From Spinacia oleracea (taxonomy: Eukaryota > Streptophyta > Magnoliopsida > Caryophyllales > Amaranthaceae), in assembly GCF_020520425.1 (NCBI RefSeq), contig NC_079487.1, positions 130,904,385 to 130,968,384 on the forward strand: a stretch of DNA of 64,000 nt, read 5' to 3'. Made by a program: the position numbers and the translations under genes. Position 1 is the first letter of the stretch. Each line of letters begins with the position of its first letter. The notes under the pieces are model-generated. The model searched no databases, was not told the DNA's origin, and saw nothing but the letters and a program-made list of their open reading frames with translations. Below are positions 3,709 through 62,860 of the stretch, one piece after another.

Positions 3709-4484
3709 TTCTAATTTAAAACAATGTAGATTGTTGGTGCCTAAATGACGACAAAGGAAAACAAAACACTAGTATGATCTTAAAAAAAATTAACCATGTA
3801 AGATAATTATGGAGAGAGAGTAGATGAGTGACGCTATGTTGCAAAATTAAAGTTGATGGAATGATGGTTGTGAAAGATGTCGATAGTGATATAATTTACG
3901 TGATATTGTGTGCTTGAAAAATCAGATAACACATATTAAACATGTTTTTACCACAGAGTACTTTAAAATTATACTTTTAAGGTGAACTAAATATAATTTT
4001 ACCAGAACCATCAAATTCAGATATTTCTTTTTTTAAATGAAATTAGGATTTCCTAAATGAATTGCTCACTTCCAAATTAAATGAAACCACCTCTTAAATT
4101 AATATAAGAAAAAGAAAGCTATGGAAAAAACTATTGGAAAGACCCTTAAGTGAAGATAAAATTGAAAAGATATAAACATCTACTTCAAAGGAAAATATCA
4201 TTATATTAGAAAAATGTATGGGTATGGGACCCTAAGTAGTAGACTAGTTAAAGATATTGGAGTAATTCACAATTACATCAAAGTTCATGTAAAGTGAAGG
4301 TCTAGGTCGTTCTTGAAGTAAACCATGATTTTGATGTGAGTCGAAGCTGAGGTCAACCCTCAATTATCATCATCTTTGCAAAATGCAATTATTCATGGAA
4401 AGTGTGTCCTCTAACTTTATCAGGGAAAGCACCCACTCCATTCGTCTCGAATTACTCGAACTGGCTTTCTTGTAAAGGCCTTGT
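3709..4484. other. Intergenic, nothing recognised
   Basis: AT-rich sequence between a Helitron and a low-complexity region; no supportable gene. Confidence 0.4.
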
Positions 4485-4990
4485 TGCTTTGGACTTAATT
4501 TCAGTACCATTCACTTCAGTTTAGTTCAGCCCTACTCAGCTCAGTTCAGTTCAGTACAGTTCAACTCCATTAGGTTCCTTTCAATTCAGTTCAAAAGAAC
4601 GACATTGTGTTCATCTTCTTCTTTAATGATCTTATTTTATTTATTATTATAATGTTAAATATTACTATTAATTATATTGTAATGTTCATCTTTATTTTAT
4701 ATTGTATTTTATATTTTTATATTTTTATCATCATTATTATTATTACTATTACTATTGTAATTATTAATTTATTATTTATTATTTATTATTTATTATTTAT
4801 TATTCTTTATTTATTATTTAGAGTTTGCTTATAGAAAGAAGATAGGCCGGTAAAAAAGGGCGTTATTATTTATTATTTATTATTTATTATTTATTATTTA
4901 TTACTCATTATTCATTATTTATTTATTCATTATGTTCCATTCAGTTAGTTCAGTTCATTTCAATTCAGTTCAGCCAAAAAAATCTTAGAA
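4485..4990. repeat. Low-complexity region: TTCAG runs around a (TTTATTA)n microsatellite
   Basis: Imperfect TTCAGTTCAG runs occur at about 4510-4595 and again at 4930-4975. Between them lie 7-bp TTTATTA repeats at about 4770-4812 and 4862-4905. The 75-aa ORF at 4607-4834 is a low-complexity (Ile/Leu/Tyr/Phe) translation of this repeat, not a gene. Similar TTCAGTT-rich words recur at about 43440 and 49880-50010. Confidence 0.6.
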
Positions 4991-5156
4991 GAACTGGCTA
5001 AAGTCATCTCAATTTACTTTTCCCATTTTTATAAATGACATGAATTACTAATTTTATATAATTTCTCTCACTTAAATAACCCAATTGTATTTCTACTTTC
5101 TAAAAAAGTTAAGCACATTTTCCACTAACTATATTAAAAAACTACCACACTATCAA

Positions 5157-5786
5157 GGATGATTGTACAATGGCTACACTAATTTTGTAGCCATTGCTAT
5201 TTCTTTTTACCAGAACCTTTGAATTTACAATATTCAATTAGGACCATTGATGAGATTGACTTTATATTTAAAATATTTTAACAAAAAATATTTTATAAAA
5301 AAATTAACAGTAACAAAAAAATTCAGTATGTTCGTTCTTTTTGTTAGTGTATTGAGTTCTTCTTCCCCGTATTTTCCTTGCTTCCATTCGATCTTATTCA
5401 TGTGATTCAAATTCCTTATTTTTAAAAATTTTAGATTAAAACATTACTCCGATTTCACAAATAGCATGAGAGAAATTGGATTTTACAAATCGGATAGAAT
5501 GAGGAAGAGAAAAGATAAATAGTGGTAGAAATATTGAAGAAGGTGTAGAGTATTAACGGAGATATTTAGGAAATGCATTAATGGAGATGCAAGATTTTGG
5601 AGGTATAAAGGCGCTTTCTTCAACGTAAAAATATAAATGCAGTTTTTATTTTTATTTTTTTATTGTGATTTTAAAAAAAGGAAAGTTCTCTTTTTGAAAA
5701 AAAATTTAAGTCAAACAATCGGATGGATATGAATTACAATAAATACAATGGCTCCCCTTTTATTGTAGCCATTGAAAAGCCTTCCC
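5157..5786. mobile_element. Mutator-like MITE with CAATGGCTAC hairpins at both ends
   Basis: A perfect 9-bp TSD CACTATCAA lies at 5148-5156 and 5787-5795, as expected for Mutator-like elements. Both ends carry a subterminal hairpin made of CAATGGCTAC and its complement GTAGCCATTG (5173-5209 and about 5747-5775). A second member is at 30618-31754. There is no coding capacity. Confidence 0.75.
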
Positions 5787-5879
5787 CACTATCAATTTCC
5801 ACATAATTAAATATGAACTCAATTATATTGCCTAAAACCCTGTGCCAAATAAAGCGAGACGAGTAATTCGGGATGGAGG

Positions 5880-19347: not shown

Positions 19348-21371
19348 ATGGCTTCAAAAAAGATTACATGGGAATCCATTTTCCCAAGTTGCTTCAAGCC
19401 AAAGGGATCACAATCCAAACCTAAACTCATTACTAAATCCAAAACCAAAACCAAAACCAAAACAACAACCAAAACTAAAACAACAACCAAAACCAAGACT
19501 AAGACTGTACCACAAAGAGTAGTACCAAGTTCTCCTCAAAGGATATCCATCTCAGACATTAGCAACCCGAATTTCGAGTTCTCGTTCAACGATCTTTCGA
19601 CCTCTTTTGTCGGGTCAAACCTTCAAGTTTTTACAGTGGATGAACTAAGGATCATCTCAAACAACTTCTCTTACACTAGCAATTTCATTGGCGAAGGCGG
19701 GTTCGGGGCTGTTTATAAAGGGTTCATTGATGAAAAGCTTAGACCCGGTTTAAAAGCTCAAAGTGTGGCTATTAAGGTCTTGGATTTGGAAGGATCACAA
19801 GGCCATAATGAGTGGCTGGTAAATACTACTTGCATTCACATTATTACCCCAAATATATCACATTTTTATTATCAACTTTTGACTAACATATTATCATATG
19901 ATTCTTAAATTTTTCAGGCTGAACTTATATTTCTGGGACAATTGAGGCATACTCATTTGGTAAAATTGATCGGATATTGCTGTGAGAATGAACAAAGGGT
20001 TCTTGTTTATGAATATATGTCCAGAGGCAACTTGGACAACCAATTATTCAGAAGTATGTTCTTATTTTTATTTTTTGGTTATATAATGAATTTATTTTAA
20101 TATAAGATCAAGTATTAACATGAATATATTGTATGAATGCAGGATGCTCTGTTGCCTTACCATGGTTGACTAGAATGAAAATCGCGCTCGGAGCTGCCAA
20201 AGGCCTCGCATTCCTTCATGGTGCCAATAAGCCTGTCATTTTAAGGGATTTCAAGGCTGCAAATATACTCTTAGATTCTGTAAGTTCGATCTTCATTTTG
20301 TTTATAGCCATCTGTTACTCGGACTTTTCATTTTACCCTACTCGTGCATGGAGAAATGAATCAAAAACATGAAACTTTTGTTGTAAAATACTACGTACTA
20401 ACCAAGTTTAACACTTGAGTACATCTTAAACCCCGAGTGCTTGGGTGAGTATCTGAGTCCGAGTAACATAGATTACGTTAAAATTTAACACAGTGACTTT
20501 TTCCGGACTTTTGGGTTAGTGTTACTTATATTATAAGTTTTTGGTGTGCAGAATTTCAAAGCAAAGCTTTCAGATTTCGGGTTTGCAAGAGATGGACCAG
20601 ATGGAGATAAAAGTCATGTAACTACAGAACACATCCTAGGCACTAAAGGCTACGTTGCTCCAGAATATGTCATGACAGGTAATTTAATACATTAATTTGA
20701 ATTAGTATTCTTAATTAACATTTTCGGTATGTTTAACGTTGACGATTAGTATTTAGTAACAACATAAAGTCACGTACAATACGTATAAACTTACGGTATT
20801 TAAATTCGTATATATCAATCAAGAAATACTTATTCCAACCACTAAAATAAAATTGTCAAATATTCTAACAAACTAAATTATAAACAACAAATATGCAGGT
20901 CATTTGACAACTATGAGTGACGTATACAGTTTCGGAGTAGTTCTTCTAGAGTTATTGACCGGGAAAAGATGCATGGACAAAATTCGTCCAAGAAGAGAAC
21001 ATTGCCTAGTCGAATGGGCTAGGCCACTTCTTAAGGATCCTCGAAAAATGGATACAATCATGGATTCGAGGCTAGAGGGTCAATACTCGGTTCAAGGGGC
21101 TAAAATAACCACCATGTTGGCTTATCAATGCCTTAGCCATAATCCGAAATCGCGACCTACAATGAGTTCAGTGGTTAAGACCTTGGAGCCGTTAATGGAG
21201 ATGAACGATATTCCGAGCCATTTCGTGTATGTTGTACCAAAAGGAGAAAAGAAAGAATATGCAAACCAAGTTAAAGAAAGGAAAATGAACAAAGATAATA
21301 ATAGGGTTAGACACAATGCTTTACATAGTAGGCTTAGCAATGGTGTTGATTCCCCTGGATTCGGTAGATAA
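19348..21371 (+). CDS. Receptor-like cytoplasmic kinase, RLCK-VII (PBL/RIPK-like)
   Basis: Protein Ser/Thr kinase; family members act at the plasma membrane below immune and growth receptors. Exons by GT/AG and frame: 19348-19818, 19918-20053, 20143-20279, 20552-20678, 20899-21371, giving 447 aa. Residues 1-90 are basic with a Lys-Thr tract (about 31-52) and a Cys near residue 15 that could be acylated; there is no Gly2. Kinase domain about 105-385: Gly loop [11 protein letters not shown] from 115, ATP-binding Lys143, catalytic Asp238, Asn243, DFG at 256-258, [10 protein letters not shown] in the activation segment. The five-exon layout and the VILRDFK site fit RLCK-VII. Odd points: Leu236 stands where the family usually has Tyr before Arg-Asp, and the activation loop ([10 protein letters not shown]) looks one residue longer than the usual HVSTRVMGT. 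Family assignment is firm; the exact orthologue is not known. Confidence 0.88.
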
Positions 21372-26789: not shown

Positions 26790-29632
26790 TCACATATTGT
26801 ACAAATGTTTAGGAAGTCTAGGCACAGCACAAGCAATAAGAGGATTCTTCTTAGGGTTGGAGAGACCAAAAATCTCGTCCATATCCAAATCTTCAACCTT
26901 CATATTATCAGGCAATTTCCATTCAAACCCATGAAGAAGATTAGCCAAACTTGACTCAATAACTTTAAGACCAAGACTATACCCAGGACACATCCTTCTA
27001 CCCGACCCGAATGGTAACAATTCAAAATCATGACCTTTCACATCAATAAAATTCTTCTCAATAAACCTCTCAGGACAAAACTCCTCTGACTTTTCATACA
27101 CATTAGGGTCTCTTTGTATAGTGAATGTATTCACAAGTACTAAAGTACCCTTTGGGATATCATATCCATCGATATTGACGTGTTCCCTCGACATTCGAGG
27201 TACGAGCATTGGTGCAACTGGGTGTAACCTCATTGTTTCTTTTGCTATTGCTCGAATGTAAGGTAGGTTTCGTATGTCGTTTTCTTGTACCCATCGATCT
27301 TTTCCTATTACACGGTCTAGCTCTTCGGTTGCCTTTGTAATGATTTCTGGCTTTTTTACGAGTTCTGATATTGCCCATTCTACTGTTACTGCTGAACTCT
27401 CTGTACCTCCAGCAATCAAATCCTGTAATTCATTTACAATTGCCTCATTAATTAGTAATTACTATAAAAACACCCTAATTAAGGGTCGAGTCACCCTTTT
27501 AGAGTCGCCTAAAATAAATAGGAGACACCAGACACGTACTTTAAAATTTTTATCATTTTTCGTACATTAGTAACATCAAAGAATACCACCAATTCTTATC
27601 ATTTTGTGGATCATGCCTTAAAAATAAAGTCAACAAGTTGTTCCTAATTTATTTGGAAAATTTGTTAATATTAATCCAACCTTTGGCCGATTTTCTTTTA
27701 TTAATTAACCCCGCCTACGACATATTTTTTAATAATCCCATCTTTACTACCCAACGACTTTTATTGGGCCCAACAGGTAATAAACTTGTTGTAGGCGGTA
27801 ATATATCCCTACGTGTTAGTACTCTCTCTCGATATATTCAGTCATCATCATCAATTCATAACCATCTTGTTGACTTTTTCACTGGTTAACGGTCATTTAA
27901 GCCCAATAAAATTCGTTGGGTAGTAAAGGTGGGATTATTAAAAAATATGTCGTATGTGGGATTAATAAAAGAAAATCGGCCAAAGGTTGGATTAATATTA
28001 CCAAATTTTCCAATTTATTTTGGCATTTTATTAGGAATATTATGAAAAAACAAAAATCAAACTAGTATCGTTGATATATGTTGTACCTTAATAATGTGAT
28101 TTTAAGTCACAATTCGCTTTTAAAAATATAGGATTGCTATGTTTCAAAAAATGGTTAGATGTTTAATTTATTATAGTTACTATAAGAGCGATAAAGGTCA
28201 CTATGAGTATAAAAAGGTATTAGATAAAACTATTGATTTTGGGTCTACACTAATATTATTATGGACCAGGTCCACACAAGAATAATCCGAATGAATATAG
28301 TTTCTGCACACCAAAAACCATTTCTATAGAAAGCCTAATCTTTAACACGCCTTACATTTTCTTTCAAATATCCTAATCACCATATTCTTAATCAAGTAAT
28401 TTTTTTTTGGAAAAGTTAAGTAGGATTATTATCGCAAATTCATGCCCCTTGAAGTGAAGATATTTTGAAGGCTAGGAAAGAGTTGATACAAATTAATTGC
28501 GAACTATTGTGAGTATCTCATCCATGCTCCTTTAACATATGAAACCATAAAAATTAAGTAATCTATCTTATCTCAAAGGAGAAATGATTAAAATAAGTAG
28601 ACTAATAATACAAATTAGACGTTTGGTAATGTGTTTAATTAATGAAGTCTAGTCATTAAACAATAAAAAAAGAAAGTAAGATTAGGACATACTACGTACC
28701 TGACTAAATGCCTTGACTCCAATTCTCTCAAGTTTAACTTCAAGATTAGGATCATCAGCAAGTTGTAATAACACATCCACCATATCTTTAGCCACCCAAT
28801 CTCCTTTCTCCTTTTCCCTTCTAGCATTATGTTCATCCAAAACATGCTCCATAAACCTATCAAACTTCTTAGCCAAAACCTTCATTCGCTTCACGTAACC
28901 ATGAACATCAATGTACTTTAAACAAGGGATCCAATCCCCGAGATTAAACACCCCATTAAGCAAGAACAATTCGTCGAGCATAAGCTTGAACTCATCCGGT
29001 GTAATTATCGATTTCTCTTCATTTTTGTCTAAGTACCTTTTCCCTAACACCATCCTACTAATCACATTTAGGCTCAATGTTGAGAGGTGATCTTTTAACA
29101 TAATGGGTTCACCATTAGTGTTAAATAAGCCTTTTAATACAGAATTAAGCTCTTCTATACGTATGTACTCGTATGATTCGAGCCTCTTTACGCTAAAAAG
29201 CTCCATTAAACACATTTTTCGCGCTTGGCGCCAATATGGACCGTACTGAGACCATGTAATATCAGAGTAGTTATATGTTGTGTACTTTCCTGCGGAGGTT
29301 TTAGGCCTCCCGGCAAAGACTACATCGTGAGTTTTAAGGAAGAGTTTTGCCATTTTCACTGATGAGCCCACTAATACAGGGACTGACCCGAATTTGAGCA
29401 TCATTAGAGGCCCATATTTCTTAGAGAGTTCATGGAGAGAGCGGTGGGGGAGCGACCCAATAAGATTGAAGTTCCCAATGATGGGCCATGGTTTTGGCCC
29501 TGGTGGTAGGTTGAGTTTACGGCGGCAGAGGTGGTTGGTAAGGAGTAGTAAGGCTATTGCCGCTAGCCATGCAGCCGCGTAGGCGGCCCAAGTTGGTGGC
29601 TCCATTGGTGAATTTTGGTGGTGATGGAACAA
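26790..29632 (-). CDS. Cytochrome P450, CYP92A-like (copy 1)
   Basis: Haem-thiolate monooxygenase of the ER membrane. Two exons on the minus strand: 29632-28700 and 27422-26790, with GT (28699-28698) and AG (27424-27423) at phase 0; 521 aa, full length for the family. N-terminal membrane segment (about residues 15-35), proline hinge LPPGPKPWPIIGN, I-helix AGGTES at 315-320, ExxR (E373..R376), haem loop FGSGRRMCPG with Cys456. The stretches AGKYTTYNYSDITWSQYGPYWRQ and RLESYEYIR are typical of the CYP92 family (some members make TMTT/DMNT homoterpenes or modify other small molecules); the substrate here is unknown. Met10 (ATG at 29605) aligns with the start of copy 2 and may be the real start (512 aa). 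The 1,277-bp intron contains a Mutator-like foldback element. Confidence 0.87.
27655..28011. mobile_element. Mutator-like foldback MITE in the P450 copy 1 intron
   Basis: Arms of about 110-120 bp (27655-27775 and 27905-28011) are inverted copies, for example CCAACCTTTGGCCGATTTTC facing GAAAATCGGCCAAAGGTTGG. The ends are GGAAAATTTG and CAAATTTTCC, and the 9-bp TSD AATTTATTT is perfect (27646-27654 and 28012-28020). The 83-aa ORF inside is not a gene. Confidence 0.88.
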
Positions 29633-34563: not shown

Positions 34564-37500
34564 TCACATATGATATATATGACGAGGAAGTCGAGGCTGA
34601 GCACAAGCAGTAAGAGGAATCTTCTTTGGGTTAGAAAGACCACATATCTCGTCCATATTTAAATCTTCAACCTTCATATTACCAGGCAATTTCCATTCAA
34701 ACCCATGAAGAATATTAGCCAAACTTGACTCAATAATTTTAAGTCCAAGACTATAACCCGGGCACATCCTTCTACCCGACCCGAAAGGCAACAACTCAAA
34801 GTTATGACCTTTGACATCAATATCATTTCCAACAAATCTCTCAGGCCAAAACTCTTCAGGATTTTGATACACATTAGGGTCTCTTTGTATGGTAAAAGTA
34901 TTGACAAGTACAATACTACCCTTTGGGATATCATAACCTTTAATTTGAACTTGCTCACGTGCCAGACGAGGTGAGAGCATAGGTGCAACAGGGTGTAATC
35001 TCATTGTTTCTTTCACAATTGCGCGGATATAAGGTAAGTTTTTTATGTCTTTCTCTTCAACCCATCTATTTTTACCTATTACGCGGTCAAGCTCTTCGGT
35101 TGCCTTTGCAAAGATTTCTGGTTTTCTTAGGAGTTCTGAAATTGCCCACTCTACGATTATTATTGAACTCTCCGTACCACCAGCAACCAAATCCTGATGA
35201 AACACATGCATTTTTGGGGTAAAATATCGTTAATAATTAGATAGTTTGTATAATAATCAATTATATTACACATTGACATTTGAAACAAAAATGATAATGA
35301 TCGCAACATGCAACCTTTAAGCTGTGTCACAATAAAAATATTGCATTGATAGTAAATATATTTTAATGATGCATAGCCTACGTGGCGTCTATATGTACCA
35401 ATTAAGCTCCGACACATAAGATTGCGACAATTAAATGTTGTCGCAACTTGCGACATTTATCATCCATCCTATTTTGAAATACTCTATCTATGATGAAGTG
35501 GTTGGAAACTTCAATCAATTAGTTTTTTTTTTTGGTAAGAGTTCAATAAATTAGTTACCTTAATAATTAAAGTATCTTATTTTTTAAACTAAAATTTAAC
35601 CATGATATCATGAATTTTGGAGTATGCAATTTATAAGCTCTTATTTATGCATGTCACAAATTTAATTAATAGCATAAGATGTCTACATAGCGAACTAACA
35701 CAGCTACATAGGTAAGCATGTTGCATGTAACGTTATGCATGTCCACAAACCGGTCCTACGTAATTCTAATTAAATTACTTTTTAACAAAAATGTTTTGTT
35801 CATATCTTAATAAGTTACGTAGTACTTAATTCCTTGAATTGAGGGAGTAGTTGAAGTAATTAAGTAGACATACTAACCATCGATAATATTATAATATATT
35901 AACTATTAAGCTCGTACATACTCCATCCGTCCCTCAAATATTGTATCCCTTAAAGATTATACGTCAGGTCGAGAAAGTACGTTAGAAACATAAAAATTAG
36001 AATAAAAAAATAGGATTTTTTATCAAAATGACTACTTTTACAATTTTATTTACCAAAATAGCTACTTTTGAATTCTATTTCCCAAACTAGCTATTATTTA
36101 TTTACCAAAACGACTATTTTGACTTTGAGACAAAAAATAAATAAATAATGAAACGGTTTGAGTTTTTTTTAGTAGTGAACCGGTTTGGATTTTTTTAATA
36201 GTGAACCGGTTTGATTTGGTTTGGTTTTTTTTTTTTTTAATTATTATTTTAGACTAAAAAACAAGTACTTTTTGCTACTAAAATCAAACCAAAGCATTTA
36301 ACAAAGATCCATTCTATTTTCCCTCTTTTTGCCATTTATTTTATATACCAAAATAGCTACTTTTAGACAAAGTATACTCAAATAAAATCAACCCAAAACA
36401 TAAATTACAAACTAAAGAATAATTACTTTATTTTAAAGAAAAAATAACTCGTATTATACTTAGAATAAAGTACCGTGAAAACATAAACATTGATCCAATC
36501 GCACACATATCATAATAAGGCCTATTAGTTTTAGGCAAAATAAACAAATACTACGGTCTGTAACTAAGTTTTATTGTCTTACACAATAAACCAACCCAAA
36601 GTTTAGAAAATAAAGAAAAAAATACATATCTAAGGGCTTACAACCTCATAAGCTAAAATCTCTCTTATGATAGACGTTAACTTTCAATCAAAGTATACAA
36701 TTCTCAAATTTTCTCAACCCAAAGAAATTTTTGATTTCTTATTAGAATGAAACCAAAGTTCCATAAAATTGAATATAATTAAATATAATATGCATTAATA
36801 ATAAGCTTTAAATGTTCAAAGAGAAAGAAAATTACATACTTTTATCAATTTTTCTATTGGAATCTTCAATCGAAAAACATTAGGGTTTATGAATGTCGAT
36901 GGTTAATTGGAAAAAATTGAACTTGATCGACTTAGGTATAGAAAAATAAAAGGAACCCAAGAAAATATACGGACGAGAGTCCCTAAAAAACAAAATCATT
37001 TCACTATTCTAAAAAAAAAAACTCAAACCAAACCGGCTCACTATTAAAAAAAACCAAACCGGTTCACTACTAAAAAAACTCAAATCGGTTCATTGTTTTT
37101 TTTTTTGCCCCAAAGTCAAAATAGTCGTTTTGGTAAATAAATAGTAGCTAGTTTGGGAAATAGAATTCAAAAGTAGCTATTTTGGTAAATAAAATTGTAA
37201 AAGTAGTCAATTTGGTAAAAGATCCAAAAAAATACCTGGCAGAAAGCCTTGACTCCAATTCTCTCAAGCTTAACTTCAAGATTAGGATCATCAGCAAGTT
37301 GTAATAACACATCCACCATATCTTTAGCCACCCAATCATCCTTCTCCTTTTCCCTTCTAGCATTATGTTCATCCAAAACATGTTCCAAAAACTTATCAAA
37401 CTTCTTAGCCAAAATCTTCATCCTCTTTACATAACCTTGAACATCAAGGTACTTAATACAAGGGATCCAATCTCCAAGATTCAACACCCCATTCAACAAG

Positions 37501-38147
37501 AACAACTCATCAAGCATTACCTTGAATTCCTCTATTGTTACAACCGACTTTTCGTCGTCGTTTTTTTCCAAGTACTTTTTCCCTAACACCATCCTACTAA
37601 TCACATTTAGGTTCAAAGTAAATAAGTGATCTTTTAACCGTGTGGATTCTCCGTTTATGTTATATAAACCTTTTAAGACGGAATTAAGTTCTTCTACACG
37701 TATGTACTCGTATGATTCGAGTCTTTTAACGTTAAAGAGCTCCATTAAGCATATTTTTCTCGCTTGGCGCCAATATGGACCGTATTGGCACCATGTAATA
37801 TCGGAGTAGTTATATGTTGTGTACTTTCCGGCAGCATTTTGAGGCCTGCCGGCAAAGATTACATCATTTGTTTTAAGGAAACATTTTGCCATTTCCACCG
37901 ATGAGCCCACTAACACGGGTACTGACCCATATTTGAGCATCATTATAGGCCCATATTTCTTAGAGAGCTTGTCGATTGAGTGGTGAGGAAGGGGCCCAAT
38001 AAGATTGAAGTTCCCTATAATGGGCCATGGTTTTGGGCCCGGTGGTAGGTTAAGTTTACGGCGAAGCAAGAGGTGGTTAGTAAGTTGTACTAGTGTTATC
38101 GCCGCTAGCAATGCAACTGCGTAGGCGGCCCAAGTTGGTGCCTCCAT
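34564..38147 (-). CDS. Cytochrome P450, CYP92A-like (copy 2)
   Basis: Paralogue of the gene at 26790-29632, with the same strand, intron position and phase. Exons 38147-37236 and 35193-34564, joined at phase 0 (…GVKAFCQ then DLVAGGTESS), give 513 aa. Features: N-terminal membrane segment (about 5-28), LPPGPKPWPIIGN hinge, AGGTES at 308-313, ExxR (E366..R369), haem loop FGSGRRMCPG with Cys448. No stop or frameshift is seen, so it should be functional if spliced. The 2,042-bp intron holds a Mutator-like element (36013-37225) whose TSD covers intron positions 2 to 10, so the transposon begins 10 bases after the exon. Substrate unknown. Copy-specific differences such as AQPRLPRHIYHM at the C terminus show it is not a recent identical duplicate. 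Confidence 0.86.
36013..37225. mobile_element. Mutator-like element at the splice donor of P450 copy 2
   Basis: The 9-bp TSD AAAAAAATA is perfect (36004-36012 and 37226-37234). TIRs begin GGATTTTTTATCAAAATGAC and GGATCTTTTACCAAATTGAC (the latter on the minus strand) and extend over about 215 bp (36013-36235 and 37000-37225). The inner arms carry repeats of GTGAACCGGTTTG and its complement. No transposase is visible. The interior is AT-rich and unassigned. Confidence 0.92.
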
Positions 38148-42621: not shown

Positions 42622-45600
42622 TTAAATAGTTATACTATTAGGCACTCCTCTACAAGTAACACCAGGCTCAGAGCTGGGTGCCATTAGCTCATAAGGTATA
42701 ACCCCAGCACCACACCTATTCCGAAGACTAGGATCAGAGTTCCTCCGATCAATCTCTTTCTCTATCCTTCTCATTTCCGATGAGAACTCGAAGAACTTCT
42801 CGACTATTACAGGGTCCCCAGTCCACGTGGAGGGTTGAGCTCGCTCCCCAAGGTACTCCTCATCAGGAGAGTGGGTAGACAGGGTGTCAATCACAGCGAT
42901 AAACTTACTCGTCTGTAAAACACTAGGGATGGCAGACAGGTAGAACCTCTGAGGGTCTGACATGAAGTTTGCATACTCGGGATCATTCTCGTCAGGGATT
43001 AAACGCCGCATTAAAACAGGCCGGTTTGGAATGTACCCTCCATAAGGGTACTGGCCGAAATTTAGAGAGGCATGTTGGGCAGACCCTAACCATACTAGTG
43101 TAGTGAGGATTCTGACGAGGTCATCTGTGTTGTTCAGTTCTGGCCACCAGCTTGCATCGCGTATATCAGCATGACCCACGTTCACAGCCTCGTAGTACCA
43201 GGCTTGAAGTTCCCTGTCATCGGCTACTAGGTTGGGGTCCTTGTAGTAATGGGTAACGTAACCTCGAATCCAATTCTCAATGGCTTCCCAAAGTAGTAAA
43301 CCATCAGCTGCATATGGATAGTCCTCCAGCAAAAGTCGTATTCCTTGTGGTTGTGTGCTATCTGGTACTGCCATTCCTCTGAAAATTACCATTGTAAGAG
43401 AAAAAGAATTAGATTCTTACGCCCTGTTCTTTAGAGTTGAACTGAAATTAACTGAACTGAACTCATATCCAATATTTTAACTGGGAAATAACAGGTAAAT
43501 TTATTGCATATTTTTCTACCTTCGGACAAGATCAAAAGGGAGGCCTTCCAAATCAAAGCGCCAATTCTTGTAGGCAGCCGCACTCATATCCATGCTATAG
43601 CGTCCAGGGACGAAACAAGCCTCAATAACACCATCCCCGTTAATCAAGTTTTGGCGAGCTAGAGCATTAATATGCAAAGTGTATCTCATATGTGGCTCCA
43701 ACAGCTTGTAAATAGGATGCATATAACTCAACTGTCTGTGGGCTGCCAGGATGAATGGCTCCAGTGCTGCATGTGTCCTCAGCCTAAATATTCATTATAA
43801 GTCAAATTTAATCAATATAAAATCTTCAAACATATATATAGGGATTTCCAATTTCCAATTTCAATTCAAAAGTAAATGATGTTTTGATAAGTTCACATTA
43901 GTTCAGATAAGCATTTTTCAAATGAAGAAAACAAAACAGTCATTAGGAGTAAGGTCTTTCTTAAAGATTAGCGTACCAGTGATGAACGAGTTGGTGAACA
44001 CCTGCATCATTGGCACAAACATGAGCCTTAGCGAGCTGCCAAATCCAGTTAGTAGTGGCATCAACCGGAGGACTCACAACCCTTTTTGACATTGAGTTAG
44101 GACCAGATGGTGGCAAACTTAGCTCAATGGCGATAGGCTTAAGGGTGCCAAGTGCGGTTAAGAAGAACACAGTTCTAGTTGCATAACATTTTCGGCCATC
44201 CAGAGCATTCAGTCGCTCCAGGAAGGGCAGGAATGTGTCATGGTAGTCCACAATGAATAGCCTGTTTGCATCCAAAGCCTGAGAAATAAAACATGACCAA
44301 GTTTTCACTTTCGTAAGCAACAGAACAGGAAAATATTAGCAAAACATGATGAAAATTAATAATACTTTATCAGTTTATCTACCTGTTGAACTGACATTCC
44401 ATCTAAGTATCCGATAATATGCTCTTCTTTAAGGGCAGATTCTACCGGACCATAAGTTTCTGTGTCGAGGTTGCTTATTGGGGGAAACGACTGCATCCTC
44501 TCAATGCTAGCAGGGTTAACACCGGCTAAAAATTGTCGAGCAAATTCATCATCTCGCATCCACGCCAACTTATCCTCTGCAAATTTACCAAGCATTACAT
44601 TAGAAAAATGGTATGACTATAATTAAGAATGAGCAGATACAAAAGCCTAAGTAGGTGTTGTGACTTACTAGAAATAATGACTGGAGTGTCGAATTTGAGT
44701 AAGCCTTGACTCGTGGATTGAATTTTGTGAACAACTTGTGGCAGCTTTTTAACAAGTTCGTCATGCAAACCAAGGTTAAGAAGCAAGCCCTCACTGAAAA
44801 GGCTATCAAGGTGCTTGAACCCGGTGAAATCATGCTTAGAGGAGATGTTGGTTGTTAAAGATGGTAGCAAGTTGTGAAGAACTGCTTTTAGCCTGCAGAA
44901 AGAGAATGTTCCTGCCTTTGACTCCTCGAATTGTTCGTCCCTAGGAACATATATTGGTAACGGCTTCTCCACACGGCTCTCAAAGTTGATATCTAGCCAC
45001 AATTAGAGAAATCACATAAATAAATGTGACCATTAAATCAAGATAAATTTGTGTGACCATTAAATCCAGACTGAGGTAGTGGTTTTTAACTAACCAGTTT
45101 CCATAGGAGGTCTGCCAGTACGACAGCGTCTAGGATATGGAATATTTTCACCACCAAGAATAGGGCGGGCATATTCGGGTCCTTTATCAGGATTTCCCAA
45201 ATCATTATATATGTCATAGTCATAAACTCTGTCTGACATTTTTCTCTCATCTTTGCCATTACCCCTTAATTCTTTCAGCTCCTTCTCCCTTAGTGCTCTC
45301 AGTCCTGCAGGTGTCTCGTGTGGTAGATAAGGCTGCACCATACCAACAATCAAATGGAATATTGTTAGTGATCTTGGGACTTACATGTCCATATGTAAAA
45401 AAAAACACTAGGCACTTTCTTTTTTCATATGGTGACAATCACATGAAATGTAATTTGCAACTCTGTTAATATCGTCTTGAAAGTTGATATCGGAAGAGAG
45501 TCTGACCACATATAAGCTTGATATGGTTCTATTCTAACACCAACTGGTGATAAGTGGAGTAGACTATCAATTTTATTTGTTCAGTGTCTCTCTATTTCTT

Positions 45601-58061: not shown

Positions 58062-58652
58062 ATGGTCGTGGAGGCGAAGATCATCAAAGGTGGAAGACGG
58101 AATTTTGCAGCAAATTATGATGATATTGATGGTGGATGCTTACCCAAGGACCTAACAATTGATATCTTGCTTCGACTACCGGCAGAATCATTGTTGAAAT
58201 TCAAATTAGTAAGTAAAACATGGAATTCTCTAATCTCAAACCCTAATTTCATAAAATCCTATACACAAAATTCAAACAACCCTACAACCTTACTATATGA
58301 ATATTCACCTTATATCATGCGAGTACATAATTCTGTATCCCTTGGTAAAAACTGCAACCAAAACAACCCTATGGTGTCAAAATTAAACCTTTCTTTCCTA
58401 AAAGAAAATATTTGTAACGTTATTGGATCATGTGATGGTCTTATATGCAAATATTCGCAACGCAAACATTGTATCTTCATCAGTAACCCTCTCACCAAAG
58501 AAACCAAGAAAATCTCAGTCCCGTTTCCTATAACAGTCGGTTTCGTCGAAATCAACGACGTTTCGTGGTTCGGGTTCGTTCCCTCTATCAATGACTACAT
58601 AATCTGGGTAGTAATAGGCAAACCAGTAGTAAACAAACAATTTCATGGTTAA
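58062..58652 (+). CDS. F-box protein, C-terminally truncated (probable pseudogene)
   Basis: F-box proteins are the substrate-binding parts of SCF ubiquitin ligases. The 196-aa ORF has an F-box at about residues 26-68 (LPKDLTIDILLRLPAESLLK, then FKLVSKTWNSLISNPNFIKSY-like) and the start of an FBA-type associated domain (SCDGLICKY, FISNPLTKETKKI, WFGFVPSINDY). Plant relatives are usually about 350-420 aa, so half is missing. The stop comes just where sequence related to a Copia integrase begins, so the gene was probably cut by a retrotransposon insertion or rearrangement. A TATA-like box and the clean N terminus mean it may still be transcribed. No intron is evident. Confidence 0.65.
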   Translation: MVVEAKIIKGGRRNFAANYDDIDGGCLPKDLTIDILLRLPAESLLKFKLVSKTWNSLISNPNFIKSYTQNSNNPTTLLYEYSPYIMRVHNSVSLGKNCNQNNPMVSKLNLSFLKENICNVIGSCDGLICKYSQRKHCIFISNPLTKETKKISVPFPITVGFVEINDVSWFGFVPSINDYIIWVVIGKPVVNKQFHG

Positions 58653-61248: not shown

Positions 61249-62860
61249 GTTTTTTTTTTTGGTAAAAGTAGGGCAAATTATATAAAAGCAGCAAAAATAA
61301 CAAGAGTTCCCAGCATTAGGGGGCGTTTGTTAGTTAGCATTACGTTACAGAACCAACATTAAAAGAACAGCTATGAAACTCCTTGTAGTACAAAGTCCTA
61401 ACGCAAAGGGGGGGGTTCTGCCAGTTTTGAATTACATTGTGCTCCAGATTTTCCCTTCTTGCATCCTTTGCCAGGCAGTCCGCCAGTTTGTTCATTTGCC
61501 TACCCTCGAACACTAGCCGCATCCCGAAAAAGTGAGTCTTCAGTTCCCTACAATCCATGACAATGTTAACAAGTTCATCAGTAATAATGTTGTTGCTGTT
61601 TATCATGTCCACACCCGTTGTACAATCCGAAGAAATGTGGATCCTCTCCCAATCCTCTCTCTTAGCTACTGTTAGAGCAAGTCGAATTGCCAGAATTTCA
61701 GCAACTAGAGCAGAGGGGGATAAGACTTTCATCTGTGCTCCCATGACCCATTGTCCTGTATGATCCCGCGCTACCATTGCAATTCCTGTTATCCAAGAAA
61801 GTGTATCCCACGAAGCATCCACATTGATTTTTATGAAACCAGGGGTTGGGGGGAGCCACACATGTATAGTAGTTAACAACTGAGTTTGATTTATGTGGGT
61901 ACAGGGTGTGGGTTGGTTAGATAACCACTCCCACGCGGCAAAGGTACTGGACTTTAAACAAGCCACCACCGTTATATTATCACGATTGAAGATCCACGCG
62001 TTTCTCCTCTTCCACAACTGCCACACGGTAAAGGGGAATAAAACACTCCATGGCATAGAGTTTGTCTCAGTAGTATGGCCAAGGTTCAAGGTTAGACAAT
62101 CTTTGATATTTTGGTTCGGGTTTGCAGGGGCTTGGAGAAGCTTATTCCACACCTCTCGGGCTCTAACACAAGAGAAAAGGATGTGGTAAGCATTTTCAGG
62201 AAACTGTGGACAGAATGGACACGAGTTAGAATTGATGATGAGCCTATTTGCAAGGGTCTGATTTGAGGGGAGGCGATCATGCCAACAAAGCCAAAGAAAG
62301 AACCTGATTTTTGGAAGAGTGGAGGCACCCCACACAGCCCCAATCTCTGGTTGATCCACAAGGTTAGGATGGCCTAGAGCAAGATAGGCTAGCTTGAATT
62401 GAAACCTATTGTTTTTGGCAAGGGTCGAGACTACAACATCCTGCTGGTGTAAGTTTGGGATGGGGGTTGTCATAATCTGTCTTTTGATCGTGGATGGGAG
62501 ATCAATGGAGAGGGGGGGGACCTCCCACTTAAAATCTAAGATGCAATCCTTCACTGTGAGGGAGTCTTCCTGGTAGGGTAAAGGGCCGTAAACACAATGT
62601 CTCAAGGGTTTATCCCCTACCCAAATGTCATCCCAAAAGGAGATAGAGGACCCATTCCCCGGGATCCACTTTGAAGTTGTCTTAAACCAATCCCAAATGT
62701 TACCCAACCCTTTCCACATGTAAGAGCCTTTCTTGAAAGAGGTGGGCATAGCTCTCCTAACAATGTACTTATGTCTCATAATTTGGGAAGCAATGTTATC
62801 CGGGTAAGTAATCAACTTCCAACACATTTTCAAAAACATAACCTTGTTAGTCATTTCTAT
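61249..62860 (-). mobile_element. 5'-truncated LINE with zf-RVT and RNase H ORF
   Basis: A poly(A) tail (T run at 61249-61260 on the plus strand) marks the 3' end. The 504-aa ORF (62854-61340) begins inside the region after the reverse transcriptase, has the zf-RVT zinc-binding module (CPFCPQFPENAYHILFSC, about residues 218-235) and an RNase H fold near the C terminus with acidic residues in NVDASWD, AEILAIRLAL, SSDC and NKLADCLAKD. Endonuclease and reverse transcriptase are absent, the usual result of incomplete reverse transcription. No TSD could be fixed. The ORF is intact from the truncation point to its stop, which suggests a young insertion or domestication; gene predictors often call such ORFs RNase H-like proteins. 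Confidence 0.8.

Follow-up and report, generated by a model that had tools for sequence, protein, structure and literature searches.

Just inside the first intron of a P450 gene (copy 2) whose tandem paralogue (copy 1) is uninserted, the window, i.e., the whole 64-kb stretch of DNA analysed here, carries a Mutator-like element (MULE). The account that we favour, with a probability of roughly 0.78, is that a young deletion-derivative MULE inserted in trans at TATTTTTTT, that the splice donor was rebuilt unchanged, and that the same junctions are most likely still used. The element is an apparently young derivative with both terminal inverted repeats (TIRs) and transposase-flanking sequences and without detectable transposase code. 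Transposase supplied from elsewhere would have inserted it at TATTTTTTT, which spans bases 2-10 of P450 intron 1, and the 9-bp duplication rebuilt the donor side as it was. Splicing would most likely still join exon 1 to exon 2 at the original donor and acceptor, the element being removed in an intron of 2042 nt instead of 820 nt. The first-pass annotation of this DNA had suggested changed splicing or intron retention as consequences, which we consider overstated: this appears to be an ordinary intron insertion, and the element most likely leaves the transcript together with the longer intron. Its third suggestion, an intact gene under regulation by the element, may still apply.

The insertion site and the P450 genes

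On the minus strand, exon 1 of copy 2 (38147-37236) ends in CAG and is followed by GTATTTTTTT (37235-37226) and the start of the element, GGATCTTTTACC (from 37225), and at the far end the element terminates with GATAAAAAATCC (to 36013), beyond which lie TATTTTTTT (36012-36004) and then intron sequence. The two copies of the target-site duplication (TSD) are identical, and the insertion point lies between intron bases 10 and 11, with the outermost base of the element now serving as intron base 11 (Table 1). The first-pass annotation had placed the exon end at 37236 and the intron GT at 37235-37234, right to the base, and among 20 homologous P450 loci inspected by motif search, out of at least 126 exon 1 matches, 19 show a GT at the corresponding codon position (the exception, with no GT found, is the short stretch L057). 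Its 9-bp TSD over intron bases 2-10, with GT retained and transposon sequence from intron base 11 onward, is likewise borne out by the second TSD copy and by the element running from 37225 to 36013. Only its phrase "exactly at the splice donor" needs correction: the element does sit immediately inside the intron, but the wording is too strong for a site between intron bases 10 and 11.

Table 1. Features of the inserted P450 gene, its paralogue and the element (window coordinates; a slash marks an exon-intron boundary)
Feature	Position	Strand	Remarks
P450 copy 2 exon 1	37236..38147	-	304 codons, ends ...KAFCQ; open frame
P450 copy 2 intron 1	35194..37235	-	2042 nt; 820 nt minus element and one TSD; GT...AG ends, frame
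P450 copy 2 exon 2	34564..35193	-	contains FGSGRRMCPG
Native splice donor GT of copy 2	37234..37235	-	CAG/GTATTTTTT
TSD AAAAAAATA, exon-1-side copy	37226..37234	.	covers intron bases 2-10
TSD AAAAAAATA, far copy	36004..36012	.	
Predicted empty site			CAGGTATTTTTTTATTCTAAT, single TSD
Non-autonomous Mutator-like element	36013..37225	-	1213 bp; TIRs, TSD, relatives, deletion structure
TIR adjoining exon 1	37011..37225	-	215 bp
Second TIR	36013..36232	+	220 bp
Part from upstream side of transposase gene (TIR, leader, start of presumed first intron)	36667..37225	-	matches L032 9735-9126, 77%
Part from downstream side of transposase gene, with second TIR	36013..36668	-	pieces match L060 4703-5409, 83-93%
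Presumed splice donor GT of MULE leader	36838..36839	-	AAA/GTATGT, P450 sense; same place as AAAG/GTATGT in L032
P450 copy 1 exon 1	28700..29605	-	uninserted paralogue, donor CAG/GTACGT
P450 copy 1 intron 1	27423..28699	-	1277 nt, no element
P450 copy 1 exon 2	27422-26790	-	

The two exons of copy 2 join in frame and encode a 513-aa product whose match to PF00067 extends from profile position 1 to 453 of 462 (E 3.6e-91), and the coding sequence is intact. This match and an intron position common to its homologues mark the gene as a plant P450, and its exon 2 includes FGSGRRMCPG, which we take to be the haem-binding motif. Copy 1 encodes 512 residues, 82.6% identical to copy 2 (422/511), and the two genes differ by dN 0.096 and dS 0.57 (Nei-Gojobori), a comparison that averages over the time since duplication and is silent on the time after the insertion. 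Beyond these genes, the window contains a lipoxygenase C-terminal exon (42622-43392, minus strand; PF00305, E 2.2e-104), a protein-kinase exon (19348-21371, plus strand) of which 20904-21371 matches kinase models and 19348-19908 has no Pfam match, an F-box frame (58062-58652, plus strand), and a retrotransposon-like remnant, probably non-LTR, with zf-RVT and the RNase H-like RVT_3 (61340-62854, minus strand).

No match to the element was found in the intron of copy 1. When the element and one TSD are removed, the intron start of copy 2, GTATTTTTTTATTCTAATTTTTA, aligns with GTACGTAGTATGTCCTAATCTTA of copy 1; after some 25 bases the introns have diverged too far to align well, so the argument for an empty site rests on the junction and the TSD rather than on the whole intron. 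Among the at least 126 exon 1 matches (130 of 148 candidates scored), there was no closer proxy for the empty site: among those listed, copy 1 alone is close (84%), and the others have 54% identity or below.

Age of the insertion

The nearest relatives of the window copy, L014 and L013, each differ from it by 7 substitutions in 1212 aligned sites, and in a three-copy comparison that leaves out gapped sites, the window copy has 3 private substitutions and L014 and L013 have 4 each. Because only these 3 changes are private to the window copy, the element probably moved recently, and the three copies look like the product of one short burst. Assuming about 7e-9 substitutions per site per year, 3/1212 would correspond to about 0.35 million years since the split from the sister copies, a figure that does not strictly date the insertion, since the window copy may have served as a source itself. 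All 3 private changes of the window copy are G to A on the gene's strand.

Possible effects on P450 expression

An alternative that we hold to be doubtful, yet worth keeping in view, is that the element lowers P450 expression with the junction unchanged, i.e., that its long inverted repeat and a spread of transposon methylation over the 5' part of the gene would reduce its output. There is a precedent in cucumber, where CsMULE, inserted with a 9-bp TSD in intron 2 of CsMYB60, is associated with much reduced expression and a more heavily methylated promoter, as described in excerpts of the report (PMC6305189). Yet that element is 7 kb long and has a transposase, compared with 1.2 kb here, and the same excerpts mention two black-spined cucumber lines that also carry the CsMULE insertion, plus a second one (PMC6305189). 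The private G to A changes are what deaminated methylcytosines on the opposite strand would leave, but three are too few to tell.

In addition, the TIRs are predicted to form a long hairpin in the transcript, which would be in keeping with lowered expression. In a thermodynamic folding model of 2242 nt that treats naked RNA only, they pair with each other from intron base 11 inward with a mean probability of 0.93. In the same model, the donor from -2 to +6 stays largely unpaired with the element in place (0.78-0.98) and likewise without it, except for +1 (0.35), and pairing predominates at base -3 and at the acceptor AG with or without the element.

Donor strength and splicing of copy 2

The insertion between intron bases 10 and 11 duplicated bases 2-10, and all donor bases are therefore as before. 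Damage to the donor by the insertion is thus not supported, since bases -3 to +10 all belong to the duplicated 9 bases or precede them and, with both TSD copies identical, equal the pre-insertion sequence. A splice-site mutation by the transposon would entail a changed donor sequence, and from -3 to +10 there is none; damage to the donor sequence itself is ruled out by the alignment of the intron start with uninserted copy 1.

The donor of copy 2 nevertheless appears weak by its own bases, and already so before the insertion. It reads CAG/GTATTT and lacks the +5 G that is present in 16 of 19 homologous donors and in copy 1, and this base was missing before the insertion because the other TSD copy reads the same. 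Its absence may in itself affect splicing efficiency. The donors of the tandem genes thus differ (window 37226-37235 vs 28691-28699), with GTATTT in copy 2 and GTACGT in copy 1.

How weak the donor is remains uncertain because two scoring matrices disagree. A matrix derived from copy 1 together with the 19 homologous donors gives the native donor 4.7 and every one of the 19 homologues more (7.6-12.3), and at least seven other GTs in the scanned stretch, three of them in the element, outscore it, a ranking drawn from the best 14 of 121 GTs by the generic matrix. That generic plant donor matrix puts the native donor first of the 121, narrowly (8.7 vs 8.5). Leaky splicing of copy 2 is possible, given that its donor falls below all 19 homologues and at least seven other GTs by the homologue matrix.

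That the insertion itself disturbs splicing, either because exon 1 reads into the element (retention) or because another donor in the element or intron is used, we judge to be unlikely. The weak donor without its +5 G, the stronger GTs by the homologue matrix, and the presumed donor of the MULE leader in sense orientation at 36839 would all favour such a disturbance. Against it, no donor base was altered, the weak sequence was already there before the element came in, and the generic matrix still ranks this donor first, if narrowly; the MULE leader donor stays below the native one by both matrices (6.2 vs 8.7 by the generic and 4.4 vs 4.7 by the homologue matrix). With the intron retained, the reading frame would end after 326 codons if the element is present and after 322 if it is absent, so retention would have been equally harmful before the insertion.

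The element as an internal deletion derivative

A search with the interior of the element (40 of 106 candidates scored) gave at least 49 matches, and among 10 of the weaker matching places that were fetched we found a whole transposase frame in one (L032), a fragment in another (L031), and none in the remaining 8. In L032, the first 559 bases of the window element are matched at 77% identity over 620 aligned columns and end about 75 bases before a 486-codon open frame in which a MULE transposase domain (PF10551, E 1.4e-17) is accompanied by a SWIM zinc finger (E 7.2e-11); no second TIR was found for L032 within the 9.9 kb inspected. A further locus, L060, was found through a search with the transposase and carries both TIRs around the transposase C-terminus (4002-4313; 88% to L032, residues 377-480), downstream of which come stretches similar to element bases 558-1003 and, after them, the other TIR. 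Related elements with transposase are thus at hand, L032 sharing the TIR and leader and L060 holding the C-terminus between both TIRs. L031 (about 4561-5840) has two TIRs around a piece of the transposase N-terminus (residues 1-73, 86%), a form between a full MULE and the type in the window.

The two halves of the window element, bases 1-559 and 558-1213, abut at element base 558/559 (window about 36667), which is where the coding region is missing. The L032 transposase had no tblastn match (E up to 1) in any of 14 elements, the window copy included, and no transposase frame of its own is detectable in the latter. Because no transposase is detectable and the halves match both sides of a MULE transposase elsewhere, the window element is, by its sequence, an internally deleted, non-autonomous MULE. 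By the same kind of comparison, the leader-like stretch is the transposase gene's own and not a captured host gene. No closely alike autonomous element was found among the 88 of 1541 candidates scored, and transposase-bearing L032 is only 77% identical in the shared part.

The remnant transposase leader has the same orientation as the P450. Excerpts of PMC3310237 state that MULE TIRs can carry promoters, and since the leader and its donor at 36839 share the orientation of the P450, chimeric transcripts are imaginable. The element could then act as a portable 5' module in which a TIR promoter and the leader donor give leader-to-exon-2 transcripts that compete with P450 mRNA, and in which the TIR hairpin loops out the element and keeps the weak donor in use. 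We give this idea very little credence; if it were true, P450 dose would depend on MULE activity.

Even less probable is that the element is a Pack-MULE carrying a piece of a captured host gene. A leader-like stretch followed by GTATGT in its interior and a 5' part that matches many places might suggest as much, but this stretch precedes the MULE transposase in L032, and the remainder matches the downstream side of the L060 transposase fragment. Moreover, all 10 fetched weaker interior matches also match the element's terminal repeat and are therefore relatives of the element rather than a host gene. We have rejected a Pack-MULE with a captured host gene on these grounds, the interior deriving from transposase-flanking sequence (L032 upstream, L060 downstream), and the internally deleted MULE stands as the preferred reading.

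The element family in the genome

The genome searched comprises 894,210,420 bases in 242 sequences. A DNA query with the exon-side end of the element, including some of exon 1, gave at least 42 matches (40 of 451 candidates scored), among them the window itself and P450 copy 1. From these we assembled a family set of 14, i.e., the window copy and 13 hand-picked relatives that are apparently whole or nearly whole elements. Perfect 9-bp direct repeats stand exactly at both ends in 10 of the 14 (9 of 13 relatives and the window copy), all of them different. These 10 include L018 and L020, for which longer repeats are also a possible reading, and L024, which is only 449 bp long and starts with A instead of G. 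In another relative, L016, the perfect repeat measures 10 bp, or 9 bp after a one-base shift of the element end, the repeats of L019 match in 8 of 9 bases, and L015 and L025 were the two of the 14 family members checked that have no TSD at their ends. In L015 (1490-3154), the right TIR is in two parts ~450 bp apart and the left end lacks its first bases, perhaps through a nested insertion.

Members such as L013 and L014 thus lie at different sites with different TSDs, as expected of a mobile MULE. The TIRs of the window element are 91% identical to each other, and their lengths of 215/220 bp and the 9-bp TSD fall within the ranges given for plant MULEs in excerpts of PMC3310237 (TSD 9-11 bp, TIRs typically 100-500 bp). 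Its first assignment as a Mutator-like element is upheld by these features and by the relatives, one of which has a MULE transposase. Coincidence, with an inverted repeat and a 9-bp match arising at random in T-rich DNA, is practically out of the question, and so is an artefact of assembly. The target is T-rich and the window holds 26 occurrences of AAAAAAATA or its complement (15 + 11), but identical 9-mers at the spacing of the TSD occur at only 10 of 62769 window positions (1.6e-4), and the 13 relatives elsewhere, 9 with a perfect TSD of their own, refute either reading.

Comparison with known systems

The insertion is in itself ordinary for MULEs and adds another case of a known type. Its interest is as a natural experiment: the insertion looks young, sits at the start of a P450 intron 1 and has an uninserted tandem paralogue adjoining it, so it would show cleanly whether splicing responds to an insert that can form a hairpin 10 bases downstream of a weak donor. 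In maize Adh1, Mu1 insertions in intron 1 reportedly had measured effects; as there, a Mutator element is found in the first intron of an enzyme gene, whereas the insertion in the window is read from sequence. No description of this particular insertion was found in the literature searched, mostly outside subscription journals and partly in excerpts.

In crops, recent intronic MULE insertions are known to make alleles differ, e.g., at CsMYB60 according to the excerpted report (PMC6305189). The cucumber CsMULE shares with our case a MULE with a 9-bp TSD in the intron of a plant gene and differs, as far as those excerpts go (PMC6305189), in its size of about 7 kb, its own transposase and a measured expression effect, whereas the window element lies close to the donor and is known from sequence. 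Pack-MULEs, as outlined in excerpts of PMC8903248, are likewise non-autonomous with MULE TIRs and TSD, but they contain a captured host gene, and none was found inside the window element. Closest are the non-autonomous deletion derivatives of plant TIR-class MULEs, with which it shares the 9-bp TSD, TIRs of 215/220 bp and a relative with a MULE transposase; we found no feature that distinguishes it from them, and its TIRs hold tandem repeats of about 29 bp and 26 bp.
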